Shown here in pieces: positions 8,276-47,402 of a stretch of 64,000 nucleotides of DNA. The notes under the pieces are model-generated. The model made no database searches. It saw only the letters and a list, made by a program, of their open reading frames with translations, and had not been told where the DNA came from. The stretch is from Halorientalis sp. (GTDB taxonomy: Archaea; Halobacteriota; Halobacteria; Halobacteriales; Haloarculaceae). The number at the start of each line of letters is the position of its first letter. The first letter of the stretch is position 1. Both the position numbers and the translations under genes were made by a program. The DNA is taken from assembly GCF_028275115.1 (NCBI RefSeq), contig NZ_JAQCNH010000097.1:1-64000 (forward strand), given 5' to 3'.

Positions 8276-8955
8276 CCAACGATCCGACCATCCGACGGTT
8301 CGACCCCGATAGTCGCCCCGTCCGAGGCCCCGAAGAGTTCGACTGGCCCGTCCAGGAGTCCGACGCCGAGTACGAGACCGGCTGGTACACTGGCGGCTAC
8401 GACCTCGTGGGACAGCCGGACGGCTCCGAGAAACGCTACTACTGGGCCGACCTGCCTGCCGCCGCTGTCGTCGTGGCGGTCGTCGACGGCGCGGACGTGC
8501 CCAGCGTGGCCGCGGACGCATCGGACGGAGCGCGGCGTGGCCCGGGAGGTGGGACCGGTGCCGACGCCGAGGACGGCGTCGACCACCTCGTCATGGTCGA
8601 CCAGTACCGACCGACGATCCGTGAGCAGTGTCTCGAACTCCCCGCCGGTATCGTCGAGGACGGCGAGAGCTACACCGACGCCGGTCGACGGGAACTCCGC
8701 GAGGAGACCGGTTTCGACGCCGCCGGCGTCTCCCTGCTGGAGGAGTTCTGGTGCTCGACCGGTATCCTCCGGCACCGCCGGGGTATCGTCTTCGCAGAGG
8801 GACTGGAACCGGTCGAGGCCGACCTCGACGACAACGAGTTCCTCAGCGTCACGACCGTGCCGGTCGACGAGGCGCTCGCTGTGGCCCGGCGAGAGCCAGC
8901 GAACGACGCCACTATCGAGGGAGTCCTGCTGGCACAGGCCGAGGACGTGCTCTAA
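8272..8955 (+). CDS. Nudix hydrolase, ADP-ribose pyrophosphatase-like
   Basis: A 227-residue protein with a complete Nudix box (G-x5-E-x7-REL-x-EETGF, about 130-152) preceded by the LPAG motif common in ADP-sugar pyrophosphatases. A low-complexity Gly/Ala-rich insert (about 80-100) splits the first beta-sheet strands and is absent from most relatives. The start overlaps the upstream gene by ATGA. The stop overlaps the convergent gene by four bases (CTAA). Confidence 0.85.
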   Translation: MTNDPTIRRFDPDSRPVRGPEEFDWPVQESDAEYETGWYTGGYDLVGQPDGSEKRYYWADLPAAAVVVAVVDGADVPSVAADASDGARRGPGGGTGADAEDGVDHLVMVDQYRPTIREQCLELPAGIVEDGESYTDAGRRELREETGFDAAGVSLLEEFWCSTGILRHRRGIVFAEGLEPVEADLDDNEFLSVTTVPVDEALAVARREPANDATIEGVLLAQAEDVL

Positions 8956-10445
8956 TCGAACACGACCGACCGGGTCACGCGCCGCTCGCCTGCGGCCGTC
9001 ACTGTCAGGGTGTACTGCCCGTCCTGAAGACCGGTGATCCACGTCTGAAACTCGCCGCCGGACACCGAGGTGTTCGTCCGTAGGACTCGCGTCCCCGTCG
9101 CGTCGGTGACCCGGACCGTGACGGACTCGGTCGGACTCCGGCCGTCGACCCGGAGTGTCCCCGACTGGATCGTCGTGTCACGTCCGGGCGTCTCCAGCCC
9201 GAACGCCGCGTCGTCGGCCCCGGCTTTGACTCGCACGTCCTCCTCGACCGCCGTCCCGTCGCTCCGCGCCACCACGCGGTACGACCCCGATTCGGGCGCC
9301 GCGAACTCCACCCGGAACCCGTCGGCGCCGGCCTCGACACGTCGATTGGCGACTGTCTCACCGGTGTCGTCCACGAGCCGTACCGTCAGGCCGCCGCTCG
9401 CGCCCCAGCCTCGGACCGCGACGGTCGTTCCCGTGACCGACGCCGAGAGCGTGACGACGGAGCCCGTGGTTGTAGGTGTCCCCGTCGCGGCGGCCGGGCC
9501 GGGGCCCCCTCCACCGTCGAAGGACCCCCCTGTGTCGGTGGCGAACGGGCCGGCTCCGACCACCGCCGTGGTCGCCACGGCCAGCCCGGCGACCACGACC
9601 ACCGCCAGCGCCAGTACCGTCGCAGTCAGCCCATTCGGGACCGTGATTGACGGGCGGGGCCGCCCGTCAGTCGCGCGGCCGAGGACGGCCGCGAGCCCGC
9701 CGTCGGTCGCGACCGCCGCCTCGGTGTCGTCACTCCCGGCCTCGCCAGCGTCGACTGCGGGTGCGGGCGTTCGCTCACCCACCCCTCCGGACCGCCCGAG
9801 GGTGTCGGGCTCCGACCCGCCCGACGGCGCGTCGTCGCGCTTCCACTCCCACAGCTTTTTGCTCCGCTCACACAGCGGGGCGAAGTCGTCGTCGTGCCCG
9901 GGCCGGAGGACGACGTCGGCGCTGGTCAGTGGCCTGCCGTCGCCGTCGACGATGGCGACGCTTGCACCCGTTCGAGCCACTGCCGTCGCGACACCGACCG
10001 CCCGGTCGGCCGTCTCCATCCCGAACGACAGGGGTGGCTCGCCGCCGTCCGCGAGTCGTGCGAGCAGGGACACCTGCGTGCCGGACCGGGACGCGGCGGT
10101 CGCGCGACCGAGCGTGTCGAGCCACGCCTCGTCCCGAGGATGACACTCCCACCCCCACCCCTCGAGCCGGAGTTTCGTGAGTTCGCGCTCTAGCGCAGCC
10201 AGCGAGGCGGCCGGTGTGTCGTCGCCGTCGGCCACGTACTCGGCGACGTATCGCCGCCAACCGCCGCGCTCGCCGGTCGGGTCGCGGCCGAGGAATAGAT
10301 ACAGGACCCGCGCTCGGTCGACGACGACGGCGGTCGTCCGGTCACCGTCGAGCAGCGACTTCACCGTCGCGTCGACGAAGGCCGCGTCGGCACTGGACGG
10401 ATACGCGAGCGTCGGTCCCTCGCCGTAGATTCGGAACGATGCCAT
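8952..10445 (-). CDS. Single-TM protein with cytoplasmic N-domain and Ig-like exterior; unrecognised
   Basis: The 497 residues start with an alpha/beta N-domain of about 210 residues (MASFRIYGEGPTLAYP) that I do not recognise. A low-complexity linker follows, then one hydrophobic helix (about 278-303), a Gly/Thr-rich linker and two beta-rich Ig/big-like units to the C-terminus. There is no N-terminal signal, so the middle helix should place the N-domain in the cytoplasm and the Ig-like part outside. It might sense or anchor something at the surface, but the role is unknown. Confidence 0.6.
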   Translation of the reverse strand: MASFRIYGEGPTLAYPSSADAAFVDATVKSLLDGDRTTAVVVDRARVLYLFLGRDPTGERGGWRRYVAEYVADGDDTPAASLAALERELTKLRLEGWGWECHPRDEAWLDTLGRATAASRSGTQVSLLARLADGGEPPLSFGMETADRAVGVATAVARTGASVAIVDGDGRPLTSADVVLRPGHDDDFAPLCERSKKLWEWKRDDAPSGGSEPDTLGRSGGVGERTPAPAVDAGEAGSDDTEAAVATDGGLAAVLGRATDGRPRPSITVPNGLTATVLALAVVVVAGLAVATTAVVGAGPFATDTGGSFDGGGGPGPAAATGTPTTTGSVVTLSASVTGTTVAVRGWGASGGLTVRLVDDTGETVANRRVEAGADGFRVEFAAPESGSYRVVARSDGTAVEEDVRVKAGADDAAFGLETPGRDTTIQSGTLRVDGRSPTESVTVRVTDATGTRVLRTNTSVSGGEFQTWITGLQDGQYTLTVTAAGERRVTRSVVFD

Positions 10446-34742: not shown

Positions 34743-36725
34743 TCAGTCGTGGTTGCACATCTGCATCGCCTCCCGGACGGCCTCGCGTTTACCCAGCAGG
34801 GTCACCCGGTCGCCGGACTCGATGACGAAGTCCGGGTCGGGGACCTGGACCTCGCCGCCCCGGTCGATCAGCGCGATGAGACAGGTGTCGGGCAGTTCGG
34901 GACCGACCTCTTTGACCGTCCGGTCTACGAGCTCTCCGGAGGTGACCTCGACCTCCTGCACGTCGCCTTCGCGGCCGATGTCGGTCATCCAGTGAGCTAG
35001 CGCGGGGCGTTCGATCTGATTGTCCATCGCCCACGCGGTTGCCATGGCAGAGGAGATGGTCCGGACGCCCAACTCCTCGAAGGCCTCGACGTTATCGGGG
35101 TTGTTCGCGCGCGCGATCACCCGGTCGGTGTCGAACTTCGAACTCGACAGCTGGGCGATCAGCAGGTTCGCGTCGTCGTCCCCGGTGGCGGCGACGATGG
35201 TCTTGGCGTTCGCGCCGCCGGCTTCCCGGAGTGTGTCGGTATCGGTGCCGTCGCCCCGGATCACGGAGTACCCCTCGTTGCGGGCGCGTTCGATCACCTG
35301 TTCCTCTTCCTCGACGATCACGACGTTTTCGCCGCGATCCTCGAGACGTTCGGCCAGTGCACGGCCGACCTGACCGCCGCCGACGATGATGACTCGCATT
35401 GGTATCACATCCAGGTATTCCGCGATGTAGCGTGCGAAGCCGCCCTCGAGGGCGACCGTCGCGAAGATGACTAGAAAGACCGTCCCGACGAGCAGTTGCG
35501 CCTGATTGTCGAAGGTCGCTGCCTCGGTACAGAGAGTCGCGACTTCCGAGCCCCCCGCCGCGTTGGCACAGGCGGTCGCCGCGTCGGTGCCGGCGATTTC
35601 GGCCGCCTCGGTCCGGAGTTCGCTCGCGTGGCTCTGCAACTCGACGGCAAACAGCGTCGCGACCGACGCCGGAATGATGCCGCGTGGGCCGACGAAACTG
35701 ATGAACAGTTTCTCCGGTCGCGTGAAGCGGTCGCCCCGGGCCGAGACGAACACCAGCAGCGGACGGATCACGAAAATGACCACCGCGACGACCGCGATCC
35801 CCGGCAGTCCGAGCTGGACCAGGTCCGCAATCTCTAGCAGTGCGGCCAGCGCGATGAAAACGAACGAGAGTACGAGAAGCGTCACGTCGCCTTTGAACGC
35901 CTCAATTTCGTCCTCGTACGGTACGTCGAGATTTCCGAGCATCAGCCCGGCGGTGGCGACCGCGGCGACGCCGGCCTCGCTGGCGATAGTGTCGGCGGCC
36001 GCGAAAGCGACGAGCGCGCCAGCGAAGGTTAGCAGTCGCGCGTTCCGCGGTGCGTTCCCCGGTGAGAGATCGACGTATCGAAGCAGGTAGTAGACGATTA
36101 CCGCGACCGTCAGACCGACGACGATGCCGATTCCGAGCCGGGAGACGAACTCCCGGAGGAAGGCCTGGCCGGACTCGTCCCGGAGGATGACGACCTCGAA
36201 GATGACGACAGCGATAATCGCCGCCGACACGTCGTTGATAATTCCCTCTGTTTCGAGTGCGGTGGCCACCCTGTCCCGCACGGGGACGACCTGCAGAATC
36301 GGAGTGATGACCGTCGGCCCGGTCGCGACCAGTAGCGCGCCGATCAGAAACGAGAGGTCCCACGGCTGATTCAGAGCGAACCTGATCGTCGCGGCCGTTC
36401 CCAGCAACGCGGTGGCAGCCCCGACCGTCACGAGTCGAACCGTCGCCGCCGGAGCCTCTCTGATGCGCTCGATACGGAGATTGAAAGCACCCTCGAAGAC
36501 GATGATGGCGACCGAGAGGCCGACGATGGCCGGCAGCGCGTCGCCGAACGTCGCCGCAGAGAGAACCCGGCCCCCAAACAGGAGCCCCGACAGCGGCCCG
36601 AGCACCAGCCCTGCGGAGATGAGAAAAATGATACTGGGGACCTGAAACCGGGCTGCGAGTAGCTGCGCACCGACGCCGAGCCCGATGATAGCGGCCACCA
36701 GTGGAATTACTTCGCCTGTAGCCAC
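34743..36725 (-). CDS. NhaP-type Na+(K+)/H+ antiporter with TrkA-N and TrkA-C domains
   Basis: A 660-residue transporter with about 12 hydrophobic helices of the CPA1 fold (about 1-440), with [11 protein letters not shown] and [15 protein letters not shown] Rossmann TrkA-N domain follows (about 450-570, [14 protein letters not shown]) and then TrkA-C (about 580-655). It should exchange cations for protons and be gated by NAD(H) or nucleotide. The predicted start is GTG at 36725, supported by GGAGGT seven bases upstream; the longer frame has a polar Arg/Ser-rich leader. It is divergent from the transducer gene. Confidence 0.9.
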
Positions 36726-36913
36726 GCCCAAACCTCCATGCACCCAGGCCGATGAGCGCACGGTTCTTAAACGCACCCACTCGCCGCTGTCGGAACCGCC
36801 GCCCGACGAGCGGACAACTAAACGACCTGTGCGGTGTCTCGTGTCACCCGGCGAGCCCCGCCACGTCCCGACAGGCACGACAGTATCGGTGACGATAATT
36901 TTACCCGGATTTA

Positions 36914-36920
36914 TTTATAA
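36914..36920 (+). promoter_or_regulatory. TATA box for the soluble transducer gene
   Basis: TTTATAA centred 26 nt before the ATG at 36943; a near-consensus haloarchaeal TATA box for a leaderless transcript. Confidence 0.7.
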
Positions 36921-36942
36921 CGCCCCGTATCAAAACACGATA

Positions 36943-38595
36943 ATGAGCTTTGTGAGCCGTGTCTCGGCGCTCTTCCGGTCCGATTCCGACGATACGGACG
37001 ACGAAGCGGGGGCCGGCGAGACGGCGGGGCGTGCGGAACCGACGGATGGGGACCCGGCGGCCGGCGTGAATGAACGGGCCGACGAGACAGACGTAGCGTC
37101 AGGGAACGGACCGGCGGACGCGCCGAGTGTAGACGAGACCGACAGCGGTGTTGGAGACGAGTTGGGTACCGATAGCGCGGACGACGCCAAGCAGTTCGTG
37201 TTCGGCGATGCCGCCGACGCGGAGTCGTCCGACTCGGGCGGTGACGCCACGAACGAGGAGAGCGACTCCTCGCCGGTCCCACGTTCCGACGGTGGCACGC
37301 AGGCCGCACAGGCACCCATCGAAGCGACGGCACGGGAGTTCCGGGACGCGATGCAGGCGGCCGCGGACGGGGACCTCGACCAGCGTCTCGACACCGACCG
37401 CGAGAACGAGGCCATGGCCGACGCCGCGGCCGCGTTCAACGAGATGCTCGACGACCTCTCGGAGACGATTGGCGAACTCGACGAGTTCGCCGACGAGGTC
37501 GACGACAAAACCGAGGAGATGAGCGCGGCGACGCGGGAGGTCCGGGACGCCAGCGAGGACGTCGACTCCTCCATGGACGAGATTACGGACAACGCCGCGG
37601 AACAGGAGGAACTCCTCGAGCGCGTCGCGGACGAGATGACCGACCTCTCGGCCACGGTCGAGGAGATTGCGTCCTCGGCCGACGAGGTAGCGTCGATCTC
37701 CCAGGAGGCAGCCGAACACGGCCAGAAAGGCCGGACCGCCGCGAACGAGGCCCTCGACGAGATGGACGACATCGAGTCACACGCCGACACCACCATCGAG
37801 CAGGTCACCTCGCTCGAATCCCAGATCGAGGAGATCGGTGGCGTCGTCGAGGTAATCGACGACATCGCCGATCAGACGAGTATCCTCGCGCTGAACGCCT
37901 CCATCGAGGCTGCACGCGCCGGCGAGGCAGGCGAGGGGTTCGCCGTCGTCGCCGACGAGGTCAAACAACTGGCCGAGGAGGCGGGCCAGGCCACCGAGGA
38001 GATCAGCACGATGATCGAGGACGTACAGGACGAGACAGGTGAAGCCGTCGACGGAGTTCGAGAGATGGGCAACCGTGTCTCGACGGGGACGGAGACGGTC
38101 GAAGACGCGCTCTCGGCCCTCGACGAAATCGCCGACCGCGTCGAGGAGGCCAACGACGGCGTCCAGTCGATCAACGCCGCCACCGACGAACAGGCCGCGA
38201 GCACCGAGGAGGTCGTCGCGATGGTCGAGGACGTGGCGGAGTTGAGCGAGGAAACCGCCGCGGAAGTCGGCGACGTTTCCAAGGCGACCGGGACCCAGAC
38301 CACGATGCTCTCGGAGGTGGCCGTCCAGATGGACCGACTGGCAGACCAGGCCAACACGCTCCGGGACCTGCTGGCAGGCTACGAAGACGAGAGTGACGGC
38401 GACGACGACCTGTCGTGGGACGACGCGCAGGTCCACGACGGTACCGACGAGCAGAGCGACCGCGGCGACGACGACCTGTCGTGGGACGACGCGAAGGTCC
38501 ACGACGGCGCTGGCGCTGATGCGAACGGTGAGGGCGACGACGACGATGGCGACGACCTGTCGTGGGACGACGCGAAGGTCCACGACGGTCGGTGA
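36943..38595 (+). CDS. Soluble methyl-accepting transducer (Htr-like) with triple C-terminal peptide
   Basis: A 550-residue cytoplasmic chemotaxis transducer without membrane helices. A disordered acidic N-terminus (about 1-120) leads to a HAMP-like helix pair (about 128-175), then the long coiled-coil signalling domain with the hairpin tip [18 protein letters not shown]. The last 65 residues hold three copies of DDLSWDDA(K/Q)VHDG separated by acidic linkers. The signal is unknown because no sensor domain is visible. Two STAS-like genes follow on the same strand. Confidence 0.9.
38401..38588 (+). repeat. Three near-identical 38-41 bp direct repeats in the transducer 3' end
   Basis: Copies at 38401-38441, 38467-38507 and 38551-38588 encode [26 protein letters not shown] and [13 protein letters not shown]. 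Copies 2 and 3 are identical over 38 bases at the DNA level, which suggests recent duplication or gene conversion. Confidence 0.9.
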
Positions 38596-38642: not shown

Positions 38643-38664
38643 CTGTGTGCAGACAACATTCCAC

Positions 38665-39051
38665 ATGGCAGATTGGAGTGTCGACGTTGACGAAGCACAA
38701 AACAGGCTGTATATCGAACTCGCCGGGAGCCACGACCCGGAGATGGCCAAAGAATCGTCGGAGGCGGTCAAGGCGGGCGCCGAACGACTCGACCCTGGAT
38801 TCGAGGTCATCTCCGACATCTCGGAGTTCGTTCCGGGCGATCAGGAGGCGGTCCAGTACATCGAGGAGGGAAAAAAGGCTGTCCGAGAGAACGGTGCCGC
38901 CGCCGCCGTCCGTGTTCTGGGCGAGGGGTCGGCGACCGGGCAGATGCACTTCGAGCGCGTCGGCGAGGACGAAGAGGAGTACGCTGTCGCCGTGGCCGAC
39001 ACCGTCGAACAGGCCGAGAAACTCCTCGAGAAGCGCGCGGCCTCGCAGTGA
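38665..39051 (+). CDS. STAS/SpoIIAA-like small protein, copy 1
   Basis: A 128-residue acidic alpha/beta protein with an N-terminal WSVDVDEAQNRLYIELAG, a middle GFEVISDISEF and C-terminal VEQAEKLLEKR. The strand-helix pattern fits a STAS-like fold, though the family call is tentative. It is clearly paralogous to the next gene (about 45-50% by eye). It lies directly after a soluble transducer, so a role in that signalling route is likely. No obvious phosphorylatable Ser motif stands out. Confidence 0.72.
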   Translation: MADWSVDVDEAQNRLYIELAGSHDPEMAKESSEAVKAGAERLDPGFEVISDISEFVPGDQEAVQYIEEGKKAVRENGAAAAVRVLGEGSATGQMHFERVGEDEEEYAVAVADTVEQAEKLLEKRAASQ

Positions 39052-39109
39052 GTCGGTTCGCTGCGACGCCGACTCACAGGTATCAAACCTGAAAACCACG
39101 CGGCAATTC

Positions 39110-39116
39110 TTATTAT
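39110..39116 (+). promoter_or_regulatory. TATA-like box for the second STAS-like gene
   Basis: TTATTAT centred 26 nt before the ATG at 39139. Confidence 0.55.
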
Positions 39117-39138
39117 CGATAGAGAACGACACGCGTAC

Positions 39139-39528
39139 ATGGCGAACTGGGACGTGACAGTCGACGAGGCGAAACAGCGTGTCTACCTGAAACTTGGCAG
39201 CGGACTCACCGTCGAACAGCAGTCGGCGGCCTCCGACGCCTGCATCGAGGCGGCGAAGCAACTCGACGACGGGTTCGACCTGGTCAACGATATGCGGACG
39301 TTCGAGCCGACGAGCGAGGAGGCACTGGAGGAAGTCGAACGGGGGAAACGCGGCCTCGCGGAGAACGGTATGGGGGCCGCAGTTCGCGTCGTCGCCGAGT
39401 CGACGGTCACCCAGATGCAGTTCGACCGGGCCGGCGAGGACGTCGAAGACTACGAACTCGCGAAGGCCGAGTCCGTCGAGGAGGCCGAGAAACTGCTGGA
39501 CAAGCGCCGCGAGCAGGCCCCGCAGTAA
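39139..39528 (+). CDS. STAS/SpoIIAA-like small protein, copy 2
   Basis: A 129-residue paralogue of the previous gene: NWDVTVDEAKQRVYLKLGS, GFDLVNDMRTF, AAVRVVAESTVTQMQFDRAG, VEEAEKLLDKRRE. It has its own promoter box. It is the closest relative of the decayed third copy beyond the insertion element (41111). Function unknown; the neighbourhood points to chemotaxis-type signalling. Confidence 0.72.
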   Translation: MANWDVTVDEAKQRVYLKLGSGLTVEQQSAASDACIEAAKQLDDGFDLVNDMRTFEPTSEEALEEVERGKRGLAENGMGAAVRVVAESTVTQMQFDRAGEDVEDYELAKAESVEEAEKLLDKRREQAPQ

Positions 39529-39614: not shown

Positions 39615-39680
39615 AGGTCTGACATCCTCCCCGGTCTAAAGGGCGAGGATTCCCGACCGCGTTGGGATACTAAGATTCGC
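39615..39680 (-). ncRNA. Predicted omega RNA (reRNA) 3' end at the element's right end
   Basis: In TnpB elements the guide RNA overlaps the 3' end of tnpB and continues across the right end, with flanking DNA acting as guide. Here the region just after the tnpB stop holds the pairing GAATCCTCGCCC/right-end motif. The guide would read minus-strand DNA left of about 39615. This rests on known family architecture, not on an RNA seen here. Confidence 0.4.
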
Positions 39681-40944
39681 GGTTAGCAACCTGTTCTCGT
39701 GGGGCGAAACAGCCCTCACTACGGTCGAACAAGTGAACCGCCGGCTGTGCCAACCAGCCGTTATCCCTATCACCGCCGTCCGTGGCGAGACTCGGGAGTA
39801 CCTTTTGCCGAATATTCTCCGCACCATTCACGTCCGCGTTCGCAACCGTATCGCACTCCTCACACACGTACAACCCGCGTTCAACACGCTGTTTGTCGTC
39901 CGTATGGCCGCACGTCGAATACGACTTCGACGTATCGCATTCCGACACCAACTCCACGGCTATACCCTCGGCTTCCGCCTTGTAGTCGAGAATCGTTGTG
40001 AAACGGTTGAACGCCCACCCGTGCAAGTCGAGATTACCGTGGTCGCCCCAGTTACGGGATTCGCCACTCTCGTCGTCTTCTCGGATGCCGCCGAGGTCGC
40101 CAACGACAAGCGTCCCGACACCTCCTTCGACACACTCCTCCACGATTGCTTTCGAGAGGGAGTGCAAGAAGTGCGTCCGGCGACCCGTTCGCTTGCGGTC
40201 AAGACGAGTGGCCTCACGGGACGAGGACTCGTCGCACTTGGCTTTCTTCTTCCTGAAGTAGTAGTCGTCTTCTTTGAGTCCGCCACCGGGATACAACACC
40301 GATTCCCCGCCGAACGAGACGGCGGCGAAGTTGCATATCCCGAGGTCAACACCGGCCACTTCTTCGCCCGGTGGTTCCGGGTCGATGGTGGTGCGACAGA
40401 CGAATTGCAATCGCCACTCGTCGCGCTTGTAGACGGCGCGAACCTGTTGAATGTCCCACTCTATCAGGTCAATATCCGGGCGAGTCTGGTACTCGCACAG
40501 GATGAAGTCTGAACGGTGTTCCTTGAGGTTGCGACCTTTTGAGAGGCGAACGCGGGTGAACTGTGCGTCGTGCTTGAAGCCAGCCGCTTTGAACGATACG
40601 GTTGAACGTGGGTGGGAGTCTCCGTGTTTGCGGTAGCCGGGCGGTCGGGCACGGTCGTCGCCGTTCCGACGCTTGCCGAACCAGCCGTTGAACGCTTCAG
40701 CGAGTTCTTCGAGAACGCGCTGACTGGATTGAGAATGTAACTCCGTATAACGTTCGTGGTCTTTGAGTTCGGCTTCGAGTTCCCCGTCATCGGGAATCTC
40801 GCCCGTTTCGTCCCACTGTTCTTGTGCGTAGTAGCGACCGACGTTCCAGAGTTTTGAGGCGGCCCATCCGAGTTGGTCGAGGTCGTCACGAACCTGCCGC
40901 TGGCTCGTTATCGTGGCCTCGAAGGTTCGGACGGTTCGACTCAT
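39670..40944 (-). CDS. tnpB: TnpB, IS200/IS605-family RNA-guided nuclease
   Basis: A 424-residue TnpB/OrfB. The RuvC-I Asp is D200 (GVDLGICNFA) and the RuvC-III Asp D371 (ANADVNGAENI). At RuvC-II the usual Glu before DL is Gly282 (VVGDLGGI). In the zinc finger, the first Cys of the T-C-x-x-C-G motif is Tyr342 (SYSTCGH), while C345, C361 and C364 remain. Haloarchaeal relatives often have VVGDL, so the Glu change may be a lineage feature; the lost Cys is odder. Activity is therefore uncertain. Full length is retained. Confidence 0.9.
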   Translation of the reverse strand: MSRTVRTFEATITSQRQVRDDLDQLGWAASKLWNVGRYYAQEQWDETGEIPDDGELEAELKDHERYTELHSQSSQRVLEELAEAFNGWFGKRRNGDDRARPPGYRKHGDSHPRSTVSFKAAGFKHDAQFTRVRLSKGRNLKEHRSDFILCEYQTRPDIDLIEWDIQQVRAVYKRDEWRLQFVCRTTIDPEPPGEEVAGVDLGICNFAAVSFGGESVLYPGGGLKEDDYYFRKKKAKCDESSSREATRLDRKRTGRRTHFLHSLSKAIVEECVEGGVGTLVVGDLGGIREDDESGESRNWGDHGNLDLHGWAFNRFTTILDYKAEAEGIAVELVSECDTSKSYSTCGHTDDKQRVERGLYVCEECDTVANADVNGAENIRQKVLPSLATDGGDRDNGWLAQPAVHLFDRSEGCFAPREQVANRES

Positions 40945-42758: not shown

Positions 42759-44975
42759 TCACCGTTCCGTCCCACCGTCGGCGACGGTCGAATCGACCGT
42801 CCGTTCGGTGGCATCGACTTGGAACGTCGAGAGCATCCGGCGGAGTTCTTTGGTCCGCTCGGCCAGTTGCCCTGCGGCGTCGGACACCTCCTCGACGGAG
42901 TCGGTCGCTTCTCCGGCGGCGTCGGTGACGGTTTCGGCCTGCCGGGTCGTCTGTTCGGAGACGCTGGCAACCTCGTCCACCATGGCGACGATTCCCTCCG
43001 CCGAACCGGCCTGCTCGTCGGTCGTCCGGGCGATGCTTTTGAGTCCGGTGTCGACCTCGTCGACGCCATCGACGATTTCCTCCAGAGCCTCTGTCAGGTC
43101 ACCGACCGATTCGACGCCGTCCGTAATCTGTGATTCGGTGGCCCGGATGTCGCTGGCGCTGTCCCGGGCCTGTGCCTGAACCTGCTCGACCTGTGACTGT
43201 ATCTCCGTGACGACAGTCTTCGTCTCGCTCGCGAGGTCTTTCACCTGGTCGGCGACGACGGCGAACCCGCTTCCGTCGGCGTCGGCCCGCGCGGCCTCGA
43301 TGTTGGCGTTCAGCGCCAGAATCGACGTCTGCTCGGCGATGTCGTCGATCAGTTCGGTTGCCTCACTGACCTGCTCGATCTCGGCGGACAGTTCCTCGAT
43401 GGCAGTCACAGCGTCGGCAATCCGGCCCTCGACATCGCGCATTTCCGTGATGGTTCGCTCGGCCTGGTCGCGCCCGTCTGCACCGAGTCGCGCGACACGG
43501 TCCGACTCCGTGGCGATCTCGTCGGTCGTGGCTGCGACTTCTTCGATTGCCGCCGACAGGTCGTTAACCTCGTCGGCCGTTCGCTGGAGGTCCCGGCTCT
43601 GCTCGCGCGCGCCGGTCGAAATCTGCCCGACCGACTCCCGCACCGCTGCACTGGCTTCTCTGACCTCGTCGGCGCTCGCCTCCACGTCAGTGCTCGACCC
43701 GGCCACGTCGTCGGTGAACTCCTCGACGTCGGCGATGGTCGACTCCAGCGAGGCGATCATGTCGTTGAACGAGGCGGCGATGGCGGACATCGCTTTGCTG
43801 TCGGTCTCGGGGTCGAGTCGTGCCGTGAGGTCGCCCTCGGCGCAGGCGGCCATGATCTCACTGTACCGCTCCGCCTCGGCCTCGAGCTCCGCGTTGAGTC
43901 GCTGGGTCTGAATCTCGGACTGCTCGGCCTCTTCACGGGCGCGCTCGGCCTCCGCACGCGCCGTTTCGGCCTCACCGAGTGACGCCTCCAGTGAACGTCG
44001 CATCGAGTCGAACTCGTCGTACAGCGCGCCAACCTCGTCTACCCGGTCGGTCGACAGCTCCGCGTCGAGATTTCCGCTGCCGATCTCGCCCGCCCGGTCG
44101 GCCAGTCGCTGGAGCGCCAGGGCGAGGTTGCCGCCAATAGTGACGCCGAAGATGCCCAGATTCAACGCGACGACGTAGACCAGGGCGACGATGGCCGCGG
44201 TCGCGACGTCGCGGTCGGCGTAGACCGTCTCGGTCGGTGCGTGACTCACGACGTGCCATCCCGTTCCAGAGACGGGCGCGGCCGTCGCGGCCAGCTCCGT
44301 CTCGCCAACGGTTCCGGTCCCGGTTCCGTTCGCCGCCAGCTCCGTGGCTCCCCCGGCGCGCTCCGGCTCGCCGGCCGCGAGAAGCACGTCGCCGTCCGCC
44401 GCGAGCGCGGTGTCGTATCGCTCGTCTGCGAGTCGGTCCTGGAGCGTCGCGGCTGCGCCCGCCACGACGACGGAGCCGTTCTCCCCGGCCGAGGCGACGA
44501 CTGGGACGACGGAGCCGTCCCCGACGACGGCGTCTCTGGAACCGCCGACCGCGACCGAGTCGGTCCCGTCAGACGTGGGCACAGGCAGCGACCGGCCGAC
44601 CGCGTTCGACTGTGAACTCGCCACGATCCGGCCATCCTCGACGTAATGTATGGCTCCGACCCGACCCGACCCGGCGGCAGTCCTGGCGAGGTAGTCGCCG
44701 AGTCGCGCCGTGTCACCGCTTCGGACGGCATCCGTGGCCGCGACGCTCTCCGCCAGATTGGCGTTCGCGTCGACCCACAGCGCCGCCGTATCGGCGCTCT
44801 CGTTCGCGTCGGCACTGAGGGCGGCGTCGGCGGACCCACCGAGTTCCCCCGCGACGTTCCCGTAAAATACGACGGCCGACACGAGTGTGACGACGAACAC
44901 GAGCGCGAGCGTCGTCGCAATCTTCAGGCTGTAACGCGACCTGATCCGGTCGGGAACGAGGTCTCGTGCGTTCAT
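42759..44975 (-). CDS. Membrane methyl-accepting transducer, Htr-like, two HAMP units
   Basis: A 738-residue transducer: TM1 (about 19-38), a 215-residue extracellular Cache-like domain (about 39-255, ending WHVVSHAPTETVYADRDV), TM2 (about 257-283), HAMP1 (about 284-335), a second HAMP-like unit (about 380-430), then the signalling coiled coil with tip [21 protein letters not shown]. Two HAMP domains after TM2 is the layout of HtrII, the sensory rhodopsin II transducer. The opsin-like gene lies just upstream, 85 bases away on the same strand, and is probably co-transcribed. Confidence 0.92.
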   Translation of the reverse strand: MNARDLVPDRIRSRYSLKIATTLALVFVVTLVSAVVFYGNVAGELGGSADAALSADANESADTAALWVDANANLAESVAATDAVRSGDTARLGDYLARTAAGSGRVGAIHYVEDGRIVASSQSNAVGRSLPVPTSDGTDSVAVGGSRDAVVGDGSVVPVVASAGENGSVVVAGAAATLQDRLADERYDTALAADGDVLLAAGEPERAGGATELAANGTGTGTVGETELAATAAPVSGTGWHVVSHAPTETVYADRDVATAAIVALVYVVALNLGIFGVTIGGNLALALQRLADRAGEIGSGNLDAELSTDRVDEVGALYDEFDSMRRSLEASLGEAETARAEAERAREEAEQSEIQTQRLNAELEAEAERYSEIMAACAEGDLTARLDPETDSKAMSAIAASFNDMIASLESTIADVEEFTDDVAGSSTDVEASADEVREASAAVRESVGQISTGAREQSRDLQRTADEVNDLSAAIEEVAATTDEIATESDRVARLGADGRDQAERTITEMRDVEGRIADAVTAIEELSAEIEQVSEATELIDDIAEQTSILALNANIEAARADADGSGFAVVADQVKDLASETKTVVTEIQSQVEQVQAQARDSASDIRATESQITDGVESVGDLTEALEEIVDGVDEVDTGLKSIARTTDEQAGSAEGIVAMVDEVASVSEQTTRQAETVTDAAGEATDSVEEVSDAAGQLAERTKELRRMLSTFQVDATERTVDSTVADGGTER

Positions 44976-45060: not shown

Positions 45061-45816
45061 TCAGTCGTCGGCCGGTGTCTCGGCGGTCGGTCGGTCCGGG
45101 TTCGAGCGCGTCAGGAACGAGAGTGGAGAGGGGTAGGTCTCGGCTACCGACCTGATTGCCGGCGCCGAGCGCAGAATCAGTCCAGCGAGCGCAACGTGGC
45201 TGAACAGGTCGAGATAGGCGGAGACGTAGATTCCGGTGAACGCGCCGAGCAGACCCAGCGCCTGTCGTGTCGTCAGCGCGACGAGCAGGTACGTGAACAG
45301 CATGATTACCTGGACGTTCCGGAGCTTACCGAAGAGGAGTCGCTGGTCGCCGGACACGGACGTCGCCGACCGCGTGTACGGGCGCAGCAACAGCCACAGT
45401 GAGTAGACGAACCCGCCGAGCACCAGCACGCTCACGAAGCTGTCAAGCGGCGGCGACGCGAGGTGGCGGGCCATCGCTCCGAAGGAGAACGCCCACAGCC
45501 CGAGTATCCCCGAGACGAGCAGCCGCCGGTTGGCGTCGGCGAGCAGTCCGGTGTAGGCGGCCGCGAACGCGTATGCGATGCCGTAGTCCAGAAACCGCGT
45601 GACGTACACCGGTGCGCCCTCCGGCCCGTCTAACAGTAGAGTTCCGGTCGCCATCCCAGTATAACTCACCGTGAGCAACGCGGTAACCGTCGGCGCGAGC
45701 AGCATATGCCGACGCATCGCGCCCTCGAACCGGCGGACTCGGGCGGCAAAGACGACTGTCAGTCCCAACGCCACGACCGCAACTGCCGAATAAAGTGTTT
45801 GTTCTTCGAACAACAT
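45061..45816 (-). CDS. Opsin-like seven-helix protein lacking the retinal-binding lysine
   Basis: A 251-residue, seven-TM homologue of sensory rhodopsin II. Helix C RFLDY keeps Arg74 and Asp77 (SRII R72/D75). Helix F starts LRNVQVIMLFTYLLVA, like SRII, but the pocket Trp positions are Leu173 and Ala180; Tyr176 stays. Helix G is YLDLFSHVALAGLILRS: Tyr201 and Asp203 are kept, but the Schiff-base lysine is His207 (codon CAC, two changes from a Lys codon). So it should not form retinal Schiff base. It lies upstream of a transducer with HtrII-like layout. Confidence 0.9.
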   Translation of the reverse strand: MLFEEQTLYSAVAVVALGLTVVFAARVRRFEGAMRRHMLLAPTVTALLTVSYTGMATGTLLLDGPEGAPVYVTRFLDYGIAYAFAAAYTGLLADANRRLLVSGILGLWAFSFGAMARHLASPPLDSFVSVLVLGGFVYSLWLLLRPYTRSATSVSGDQRLLFGKLRNVQVIMLFTYLLVALTTRQALGLLGAFTGIYVSAYLDLFSHVALAGLILRSAPAIRSVAETYPSPLSFLTRSNPDRPTAETPADD

Positions 45817-46019: not shown

Positions 46020-47402
46020 ATGATTAGCAGGCAGTTCCTCCGAGAGAACCCGGAGACGGTCAGAGACGCCCTCGACGACAAGGGCGTCGACGACGTGGAC
46101 GTCGACCGGATTCTGGCGGTCGACGAGGAGTGGCGCGAGCTGAAGGCTCGCGGTGACGACCTCCGACACGAGCGAAACGAGGTCTCCTCGAAGATCGGCC
46201 AGCTCAAACAGGAGGGCAAAGACGAGAAAGCACAGGAAGCCATCGAGCGGTCGGGCGAACTGAAAGAGAAACTGGAGGACGTCGAGGACCGTGCCACGGA
46301 ACTCGAGGCCGAACTGGAAGAGGCCCTGCTCGAGCTCCCGCAAATCCCTCACGAGGACGCCCCAATCGGCGACGACGAGAGTGACAACGTTGCGGTCGCC
46401 CGAGAGGGGTTCTCCGACCTGCGCGACCTCCCGGACCCGGTGGTCCCCCACTACGACCTCGGAGAGGACCTCGGTATCCTGAGCTTCGAGCGCGGGGCGA
46501 AAGTCTCCGGTGGCGGCTTCTACTTCCTGCAGGGCGACGGTGCGCGTCTGGAACACGCCCTCATTCAGTTCATGCTCGACCTGCACCGCGAGCAGGGCTA
46601 CACCGACGTGTTCCCGCCGATCCCGGTCAACAGCACGTCGATGGAGGGGACCGGCCAGTTCCCGAAGTTCGTCGAGGACGCCTACCGCGTCGGCGAGGAC
46701 AACGACCAACCCTACGACGAGGACGACCTCTGGCTCCTCCCGACCGCCGAAGTTCCGGTCACCAACATGTACCGCGACGAGATTCTGCTGGACGACGACC
46801 TCCCGCTGAAACACCAGGCATACACCCCCAACTTTCGGCGCGAAGCCGGCGAACACGGCACGGAGACGCGCGGCATCGTCCGCGTCCACCAGTTCAACAA
46901 GGTCGAACTCGTCAACTTCGTTCGCCCGGAGAACAGCTACGACCGTCTCGAAGACCTCCGCGAGGAAGCCGCGGCAGTGCTCGACGAACTGGGCCTGCCA
47001 TACCGCGTGCTGGAGATGTGTACCGGCGACATGGGCTTTACCCAGGCCAAAAAGTACGACATCGAAGTGTGGGCACCGGGCGACGACATGGACGACGGCC
47101 CCGAGGCGGGCGGCCGCTGGCTGGAGGTCTCCTCGGTCTCGAACTTCGAGGCGTTCCAGGCCCGGCGGGCGGGCATCCGGTACCGACCCGAGCGCCACGA
47201 GTCCGCCGAGTACCTGCACACGCTGAACGGCTCCGGACTGGCCGTCCCCCGCGTGATGGTCGCTATCATGGAGTACTATCAGAACGACAACGGCACGGTC
47301 ACCGTTCCCGAACCGCTCCGGGAGTACATGGGCGGCCAGGAGACCATCGAGGGCCACGAACCCGTCGGTGAGAGCGCTCTCGGTGCAGGCGAGAAGGGCT
47401 AA
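46020..47402 (+). CDS. serS: Seryl-tRNA synthetase
   Basis: A 460-residue class II synthetase charging tRNA-Ser. It has the N-terminal tRNA-binding coiled coil (about 35-105), motif 2 around FRREAGEHGTETRGIVRVHQFNKVE and motif 3 near the C-terminus (LNGSGLAVPRVMVAIMEYYQ). Bacterial/common type. The stop overlaps the convergent SnoaL-like gene in CTAA. Confidence 0.97.
   Translation: MISRQFLRENPETVRDALDDKGVDDVDVDRILAVDEEWRELKARGDDLRHERNEVSSKIGQLKQEGKDEKAQEAIERSGELKEKLEDVEDRATELEAELEEALLELPQIPHEDAPIGDDESDNVAVAREGFSDLRDLPDPVVPHYDLGEDLGILSFERGAKVSGGGFYFLQGDGARLEHALIQFMLDLHREQGYTDVFPPIPVNSTSMEGTGQFPKFVEDAYRVGEDNDQPYDEDDLWLLPTAEVPVTNMYRDEILLDDDLPLKHQAYTPNFRREAGEHGTETRGIVRVHQFNKVELVNFVRPENSYDRLEDLREEAAAVLDELGLPYRVLEMCTGDMGFTQAKKYDIEVWAPGDDMDDGPEAGGRWLEVSSVSNFEAFQARRAGIRYRPERHESAEYLHTLNGSGLAVPRVMVAIMEYYQNDNGTVTVPEPLREYMGGQETIEGHEPVGESALGAGEKG

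Follow-up and report, generated by a model that had tools for sequence, protein, structure and literature searches.

Lysine-less opsins of haloarchaea were described by Becker et al. (2016; PMC4915679), who found that 48 of the 170 opsins in 80 haloarchaeal genomes lack the retinal lysine and named these opsin-related proteins (ORPs). According to that report, the ORPs are monophyletic and lie nearest to the sensory opsins. They comprise a group A, which combines Arg at position 205 of sensory rhodopsin II (SRII; its numbering is used here for comparisons) with W76D and Y174L, and a group B, which combines Leu or another hydrophobic residue at 205 with Y174L; Tyr199 is given as universal, and D189 as highly conserved in both groups. 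Linkage to a HAMP/MCP transducer gene was reported for all but one of the 16 members of group A and for 17 of the 32 members of group B. Transcription was observed for eight of nine ORPs tested, the protein was undetected by LC-MS/MS in the native hosts, and two expressed ORPs showed no retinal absorption. Models of ORPs were predicted to contain new cavities, and the sensing of a non-light stimulus was proposed (Becker et al., 2016). Chromophore-free opsin signalling has been an open proposal since that work, and a search of the open-licence literature returned no functional study of a haloarchaeal ORP. The main text of Becker et al. does not include Halorientalis, uses the word histidine once, in another sense, and names no His form.

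Two further kinds of system invite comparison. In the SRII/HtrII complex, helices F and G of the opsin are those that bind the transducer, and a second hydrogen bond joins Thr189 to Glu43/Ser62 of HtrII (reviewed in PMC3274258); the HtrII of Halobacterium salinarum is described in the same review as both a photo-transducer and a serine chemoreceptor. Lysine-less type 1 rhodopsins are also reported from fungi (PMC4915679) and from bacteria, namely the betaproteobacterial Rh-noK and the freshwater FArhodopsins (PMC10308929). The bacterial proteins share with the one described below their kinship to type 1 rhodopsins and the missing retinal lysine, but as described they are relatives of xanthorhodopsin and proteorhodopsin encoded beside a proteorhodopsin or flotillin gene, with no HtrII-like transducer.

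The stretch of DNA analysed here (the window) comprises 64,000 nucleotides of a Halorientalis sp. genome. On its minus strand, an intact open reading frame from 45816 to 45061 encodes an ORP of 251 amino acids with seven helices. The Pfam profile Bac_rhodopsin (PF01036) matches the protein at 40.2 bits (cut-off 24.6), and no NCBIfam profile matched it. The fold is borne out by an AlphaFold2 model (pLDDT 86.8, pTM 0.82, 13 sequences), which Foldseek matches best, within the PDB, to the SRII chain in solved complexes with HtrII (5jjn_A, TM 0.80/0.89, 23% identity); when PDB entries are ranked by sequence only, deltarhodopsin is best (7e-10) and SRII fifth (4e-5). His207, encoded by CAC at 45196-45198, occupies the place of the retinal lysine, both in the alignment with SRII (K205) and in a column where all 12 lysine-bearing aligned rows have Lys. 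These results confirm what a first-pass annotation had read from the letters alone, namely an unbroken frame for a seven-helix opsin homologue with His207 replacing the Schiff-base lysine of SRII.

Residues were mapped onto SRII through an ungapped alignment of helices F and G to 2ksy, with helix C also aligned. The window protein retains Arg74, Asp77, Tyr176, Tyr201 and Asp203 (R72, D75, Y174, Y199 and D201 in SRII). Exchanged are Leu173 and Ala180 for the pocket tryptophans W171 and W178, Tyr78 for W76, Ala81, Tyr82 and Ala83 for T79, T80 and P81, and Ser206 for T204, and Gly191 stands at T189. The residues listed in the first-pass annotation, including Leu173, Ala180, the AYA of helix C and the helix C Arg/Asp, are right by this alignment; the preserved equivalent of Tyr174 had gone unmentioned.

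With His, Tyr and Tyr at positions 205, 76 and 174, the window protein has neither the Arg, Asp and Leu of group A nor the Leu/hydrophobic residue and Leu (at 205 and 174) of group B. Judged by the absent lysine, its place in a lysine-less clade and a linked transducer, it can nonetheless be assigned to the ORP class, the identity of the clade in our tree with that of Becker et al. being judged from the features and genera they have in common. That the protein is of a new kind was considered and rejected, lysine-less haloarchaeal ORPs having already been published (Becker et al., 2016); the near-unprecedented status first suggested for the gene is therefore not supported, although the part of that suggestion that none has been functionally characterised agrees with the open-licence literature searched. 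What appears to be new is the branch that combines His, Tyr174 and a long transducer. The Halorientalis His clade shares with the ORPs of Becker et al. the missing lysine, Tyr199, a small residue in place of Trp178 and the frequent transducer neighbour with HAMP and MCP domains. It differs from them, as they are described, in its His, in the retained Tyr174, in a transducer that is long and carries a dCache-like domain, and in the order of the genes, the opsin gene preceding that of the transducer; the window protein also has Gly191 where theirs have D189, the residue at this position being Asp in H. marina, and its Tyr201 is the equivalent of their Tyr199. Tyr174 is kept both in the His clade and in an Arg clade of Natrinema and Haloterrigena, unlike in groups A and B as described. 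Because Arg72 and Tyr174 are kept throughout the His clade and Asp75 in five of its seven members, the cavity appears from its residues to be less altered than in either published group.

The gene is present in six of the eight Halorientalis genomes examined, being absent from G006 and G007, and H. pallida is a seventh Halorientalis species that has it. All seven species carry His at the lysine position, and the other six proteins are 41-81% identical to that of the window. A sequencing error, which the first-pass annotation had also discounted, is ruled out because these six further species share His at the same place, and a pseudogene is ruled out by the open frame and by purifying selection. 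Selection was measured on 14 ORP pairs (10 distinct) from five distinct sequences, L028 and L173 being identical as proteins; L171 was excluded as having neither Lys nor His. For the whole protein, dN/dS is 0.22-0.37 (10 pairs, five closely related Halorientalis ORPs), and without the tail it is 0.18-0.33 with a median of 0.25 (14 pairs, 10 distinct), values that lie inside the range of the Lys-bearing opsins of the genus (median 0.20, 0.08-0.56, 61 pairs). The ratio of pN in helices F-G to that in helices A-E has a median of 0.35 in the ORPs (0.21-0.52; 14 pairs, 10 distinct), as compared with 0.71 in the Lys opsins of the genus (0.12-1.83; 61 pairs), a wide range within which the ORP ratio falls, and with 0.56-0.83 for all but one of the 14 pairs from the sensory rhodopsin-like L004 family. 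The F-G block (residues 156-222; 45151-45351, minus strand) is the most constrained part of the protein and the counterpart of the helices by which SRII binds its transducer. From the dN/dS values and the F-G/A-E ratios, we conclude that the ORP is maintained by purifying selection, strongest in helices F-G. A histidine found only here and under relaxed selection, the outcome that the first-pass annotation had set against its own reading, is not what emerged: seven species have it, and dN/dS is far from 1.

In order to place the protein among its relatives, we screened the order with an ORP profile; of 392 genomes, 185 matched at E <= 1e-25, Lys-bearing opsins included. The 80 regions taken are the listed matches down to 121.4 bits, a set that misses weaker ORPs and holds few Lys rows by design. 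They provided 88 distinct rows, 84 of them lysine-less among the matches listed. The window genome, which has nine opsin matches, contributes the eight of them that bear the retinal lysine and brings the total to 96. In this set of distinct sequences, the lysine position is occupied, among the matches listed, by Leu in 34, Arg in 21, Lys in 12, His in nine, Val in seven, Phe and Ile in five each, and Thr, Met and Ala in one each. A maximum-likelihood opsin tree was computed with the lysine column left out, on the 88 of 100 rows that remained after thinning near-identical ones. It places 72 lysine-less rows on one branch (100/99) opposite 16 Lys rows, so that one change suffices among the matches listed, a result limited to the rows used; in a smaller set of 19 rows, the lysine-less branch has support of 100/100. 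Inside this branch, the seven Halorientalis His rows form a clade (100/99) that stands beside L100 and the Leu class (87/69), and 14 Arg rows including Natrinema and Haloterrigena form a separate clade (100/100; among the matches listed). The nine His rows in the tree (among the matches listed) are those of Halorientalis, a Salinarchaeum MAG and L100; they need three changes, and the AU test speaks against a single haloarchaeal His clade (p 0.035), which was rejected. The conserved His clade that the first-pass annotation had asked about thus exists within Halorientalis but does not extend across the haloarchaea.

A different opsin of the genus, at 7766-8485 of L181 (G007:C1), has Met at the lysine position, lies outside the main lysine-less clade and is sister to the Lys-bearing L007 of the window genome (100/100); by its place in the tree it represents a second, independent loss of the lysine. 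Downstream of it is a short gene (8636-9829) that looks MCP-like by its sequence, and CheW matches occur nearby, one of them inside a CheA-like frame of 1200 amino acids.

The gene downstream of the ORP in the window (42759-44975, minus strand) begins 85 nt past the ORP stop and encodes a transducer (MCP) of 738 amino acids with Pfam matches to HAMP and MCPsignal, the signalling domain covering residues 504-672 (42960-43466; PF00015, 7.2e-35). Divergent from the ORP on its other side is a gene on the plus strand (46020-47402), which we take to be serS-like and which serves as a synteny landmark outside the system. The order serS-like gene, ORP, transducer recurs in all nine context loci compared with the window (six distinct Halorientalis genomes). 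This linkage supports the transducer partnership that had been suggested for the protein; adjacency and constraint fall short of proving that the two proteins bind.

Residues 246-354 of the transducer match TM2-HAMP of Natronomonas pharaonis HtrII (phmmer to 2f95_B/4gyc_B, E=1e-21; TM2 and HAMP at 43914-44240). Its Asn272 (44160-44162) is the equivalent of HtrII Asn74, which is kept in all seven Halorientalis transducers; among the matches listed, transducers of the Tyr174-Arg class have His at this position in 10 of 18 cases and Asn in the other eight. The residues of the Tyr199-Asn74 pair are kept in both ORP and transducer. The partners of the second SRII-HtrII bond are altered on both sides, Thr189 to Gly191 and Glu43/Ser62 to Asn40/Ala260, the assignment of Asn40 resting on a weak match of TM1 to HtrII (9.8 bits, i-E 4.9). 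The pair thus shares with the SRII/HtrII complex (5jjn, 1h2s) the fold of the opsin (TM 0.80/0.89), the homology of TM2-HAMP and the Tyr199-Asn74 pair, and differs from it in lacking the retinal lysine, in the loss of two pocket tryptophans and in the changed partners of the Thr189 bond.

Between TM1 and TM2, the transducer has an extracellular domain of ~215 amino acids (44220-44864), delimited by hydropathy and predicted to be dCache-like. In the model of residues 1-336 (pLDDT 77), this part resembles the dCache ligand-binding domains of chemoreceptors (Foldseek, E about 3e-7, TM_t 0.6-0.7). The Pfam dCache profiles gave no match in the window transducer and reached E 0.037 in one of 11 relatives; the predicted dCache-like character is thus a resemblance by fold alone. 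The suggested combination of an opsin partner with chemoreception in one transducer is, by description, like that of H. salinarum HtrII, but the opsin half in Halorientalis cannot bind retinal covalently.

Pairing with a transducer extends well beyond Halorientalis. Among the matches listed, a same-strand MCP gene lies within 400 nt of the opsin in 56 of the 84 lysine-less rows. It does so in 27 of the 28 that have Tyr174, and the partner is long (720-758 amino acids) in 26 of these 27, the exception being L100. Rows with Leu or Met at 174 have an MCP partner in 28 of 55 cases among the matches listed, and all 28 partners (24 distinct transducers, as four ORP pairs share one transducer) are short (526-585 amino acids), with loops of 10-19 amino acids between TM1 and TM2. 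Long and short are separated here by a protein length of over 700 amino acids or not; L039 (Thr174), with a partner frame of 245 amino acids, enters neither the trees nor this count. Because the classes are clades, the split is an architectural pattern and no test of coevolution. Among the long transducers in the matches listed, the opsin gene precedes that of the transducer in the seven Halorientalis rows and follows it in the remaining 19. Each of four loci (L036, L038, L097 and L099) has a Leu-type ORP on either side of a single short-loop transducer that both share, with more MCP genes nearby.

A tree of the transducers places 51 ORP transducers on one side of a branch (100/95), opposite one sensory rhodopsin transducer and one soluble MCP. 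In it, the Halorientalis clade falls outside the other 42, long and short classes alike (100/100), as judged with two distant outgroup rows, L144 (the transducer of a Lys opsin) and the soluble MCP, of which the program warns that the two long branches meet. In a quick unrooted tree, the Halorientalis transducers group with L144 and not with those of the remaining ORPs (99). A motif mismatch removed the partners of three Lys rows (L141, L146 and L148) from both trees, and the quick tree additionally lacks L123, L127, L147 and L149. The opsin and transducer trees resolve the same main classes, which suggests a long co-inheritance of ORP and transducer, but they position the Halorientalis clade differently.

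We consider it probable that the window ORP is a retinal-independent, dedicated seven-helix partner of the downstream HtrII-like chemotaxis transducer and feeds a path of the SRII-HtrII type. Helices F and G of the ORP would form a complex with the transducer by holding TM1 and TM2 as in SRII-HtrII, and a relay from Tyr176 through Ser206 and Tyr201 to Asn272 of the transducer (Tyr174, Thr204 and Tyr199 of SRII and Asn74 of HtrII) would be retained. A non-light input would alter helices F/G and HAMP, and hence CheA and the archaellum, with taxis as the output. Chemical sensing by the Halorientalis His branch is more likely than light sensing. As to which half senses, the stimulus is about equally likely to enter through the cavity of the ORP, where His207 may lie near Asp77, or via the transducer's extracellular domain.

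One form of this proposal, to which we would give somewhat less than an even chance, makes the ORP a structural subunit that only stabilises or biases the transducer, the dCache-like domain being the sole sensor. The transducer does carry its own predicted ligand domain, the binding-face helices F-G are constrained and helices A-E vary more, and the cavity residues differ even within Halorientalis. Against it stand the Leu/Met174 ORPs, which pair with short-loop transducers in every one of the 28 rows with a partner (24 distinct, among the matches listed), and in which the opsin is the only large outward-facing part of the pair. Moreover, among the matches listed, 28 of the 84 lysine-less opsins lack an MCP gene on their own strand within 400 nt, so the ORP fold has uses beyond that of a scaffold.

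The ORP may instead be a chemoreceptor or a proton or charge sensor in its own right, its cavity binding another small molecule and His207-Asp77 replacing the switch between Schiff base and Asp75; we give this, too, somewhat less than an even chance. The new cavities in the ORP models of Becker et al. (2016) are in keeping with it, as is the retention of Tyr174 and most of the relay in this class. An acidic residue at 75 accompanies Lys, Arg or His at 205 in 36 of 42 rows and is found in 0 of 46 others (among the matches listed), a suggestive association of charges which is not counted as support because the tree reduces it to only two independent pairs. In H. salina and H. marina, the His form is combined with Gly at position 204 and with Met or Val at position 75, residues that speak against a strict relay or a His-Asp pair.

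A broader extension of the preferred reading, in which the ORP is the retinal-independent partner of its transducer, is speculative and on balance doubtful. It would make the ORPs with the Tyr174-Tyr199-Asn74 relay a third lysine-less lineage, acting as retinal-free co-receptors of dCache-like transducers, with a charge pair in place of the protonated Schiff base. If this were true, the pair would be His207-Asp77 here and Arg with Asp or Glu in Natrinema and Haloterrigena, and a chemical or proton signal would use the switch of a photoreceptor. The Halorientalis clade offers a sharp test of chromophore-free signalling, with a conserved His, a mostly conserved relay and a definite partner gene. 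Further material is provided by closely related species that have or lack the gene and by a genome in which the ORP is the sole opsin. Two natural designs can also be compared, long transducers beside Tyr174 ORPs and short-loop ones beside Leu/Met174 ORPs.

That genome, G003 (Halorientalis, 99% complete, 3 contigs), bears on whether the protein could sense light through non-covalently bound retinal or another chromophore, which we regard as very improbable. The residues Arg72, Asp75, Tyr174, Tyr199 and Asp201 are kept, and seven of the eight Halorientalis genomes, the window's included, have a BCD (Brp/Blh) match; Trp171 and Trp178 are lost, and the two published ORPs that were expressed showed no absorption (PMC4915679). 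In G003, the single PF01036 match is the His ORP, and neither BCD (Brp/Blh) nor Lycopene_cyc gave a match, which sets it alone among the eight genomes; the Lycopene_cyc profile is weak here, with a best E of 4e-6, and of the seven genomes that do match it, two (one of them the window's) fall below the cut-off. Eight species whose genomes are of this kind were reported for other ORPs (Becker et al., 2016). G003 also has three CheW matches and archaellin matches. Because it keeps a constrained ORP without a detected gene for retinal synthesis, it argues that the ORP functions without retinal made by the cell itself; retinal may be taken up from outside. Together with dN/dS of 0.18-0.33 without the tail, the absence from G003 of another opsin or a retinal-synthesis match bears out the suggestion of the first-pass annotation that selection acts for a function without covalent retinal. 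A sensory rhodopsin decaying under relaxed selection, for which the loss of the lysine and two pocket tryptophans could be cited, is scarcely credible in view of the open frame, His in seven species, a median dN/dS of 0.25 beside 0.20 for the Lys opsins of the genus, and the fact that no frameshifted copies were seen.

Other genes near the ORP locus include a further MCP gene at 36685-38595 (plus strand), with an MCPsignal domain and a weak HAMP, and next to it two related proteins of ~130 amino acids without a Pfam match (38647-39528, plus strand). At the equivalent position of several other Halorientalis loci there are three to five tandem relatives of the latter, flanked by a metallo-beta-lactamase gene on one side and an MCP gene on the other wherever the locus extends that far. 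A frame at 39670-40944 (minus strand) resembles, by the look of its sequence, a transposon-associated (TnpB-like) protein.
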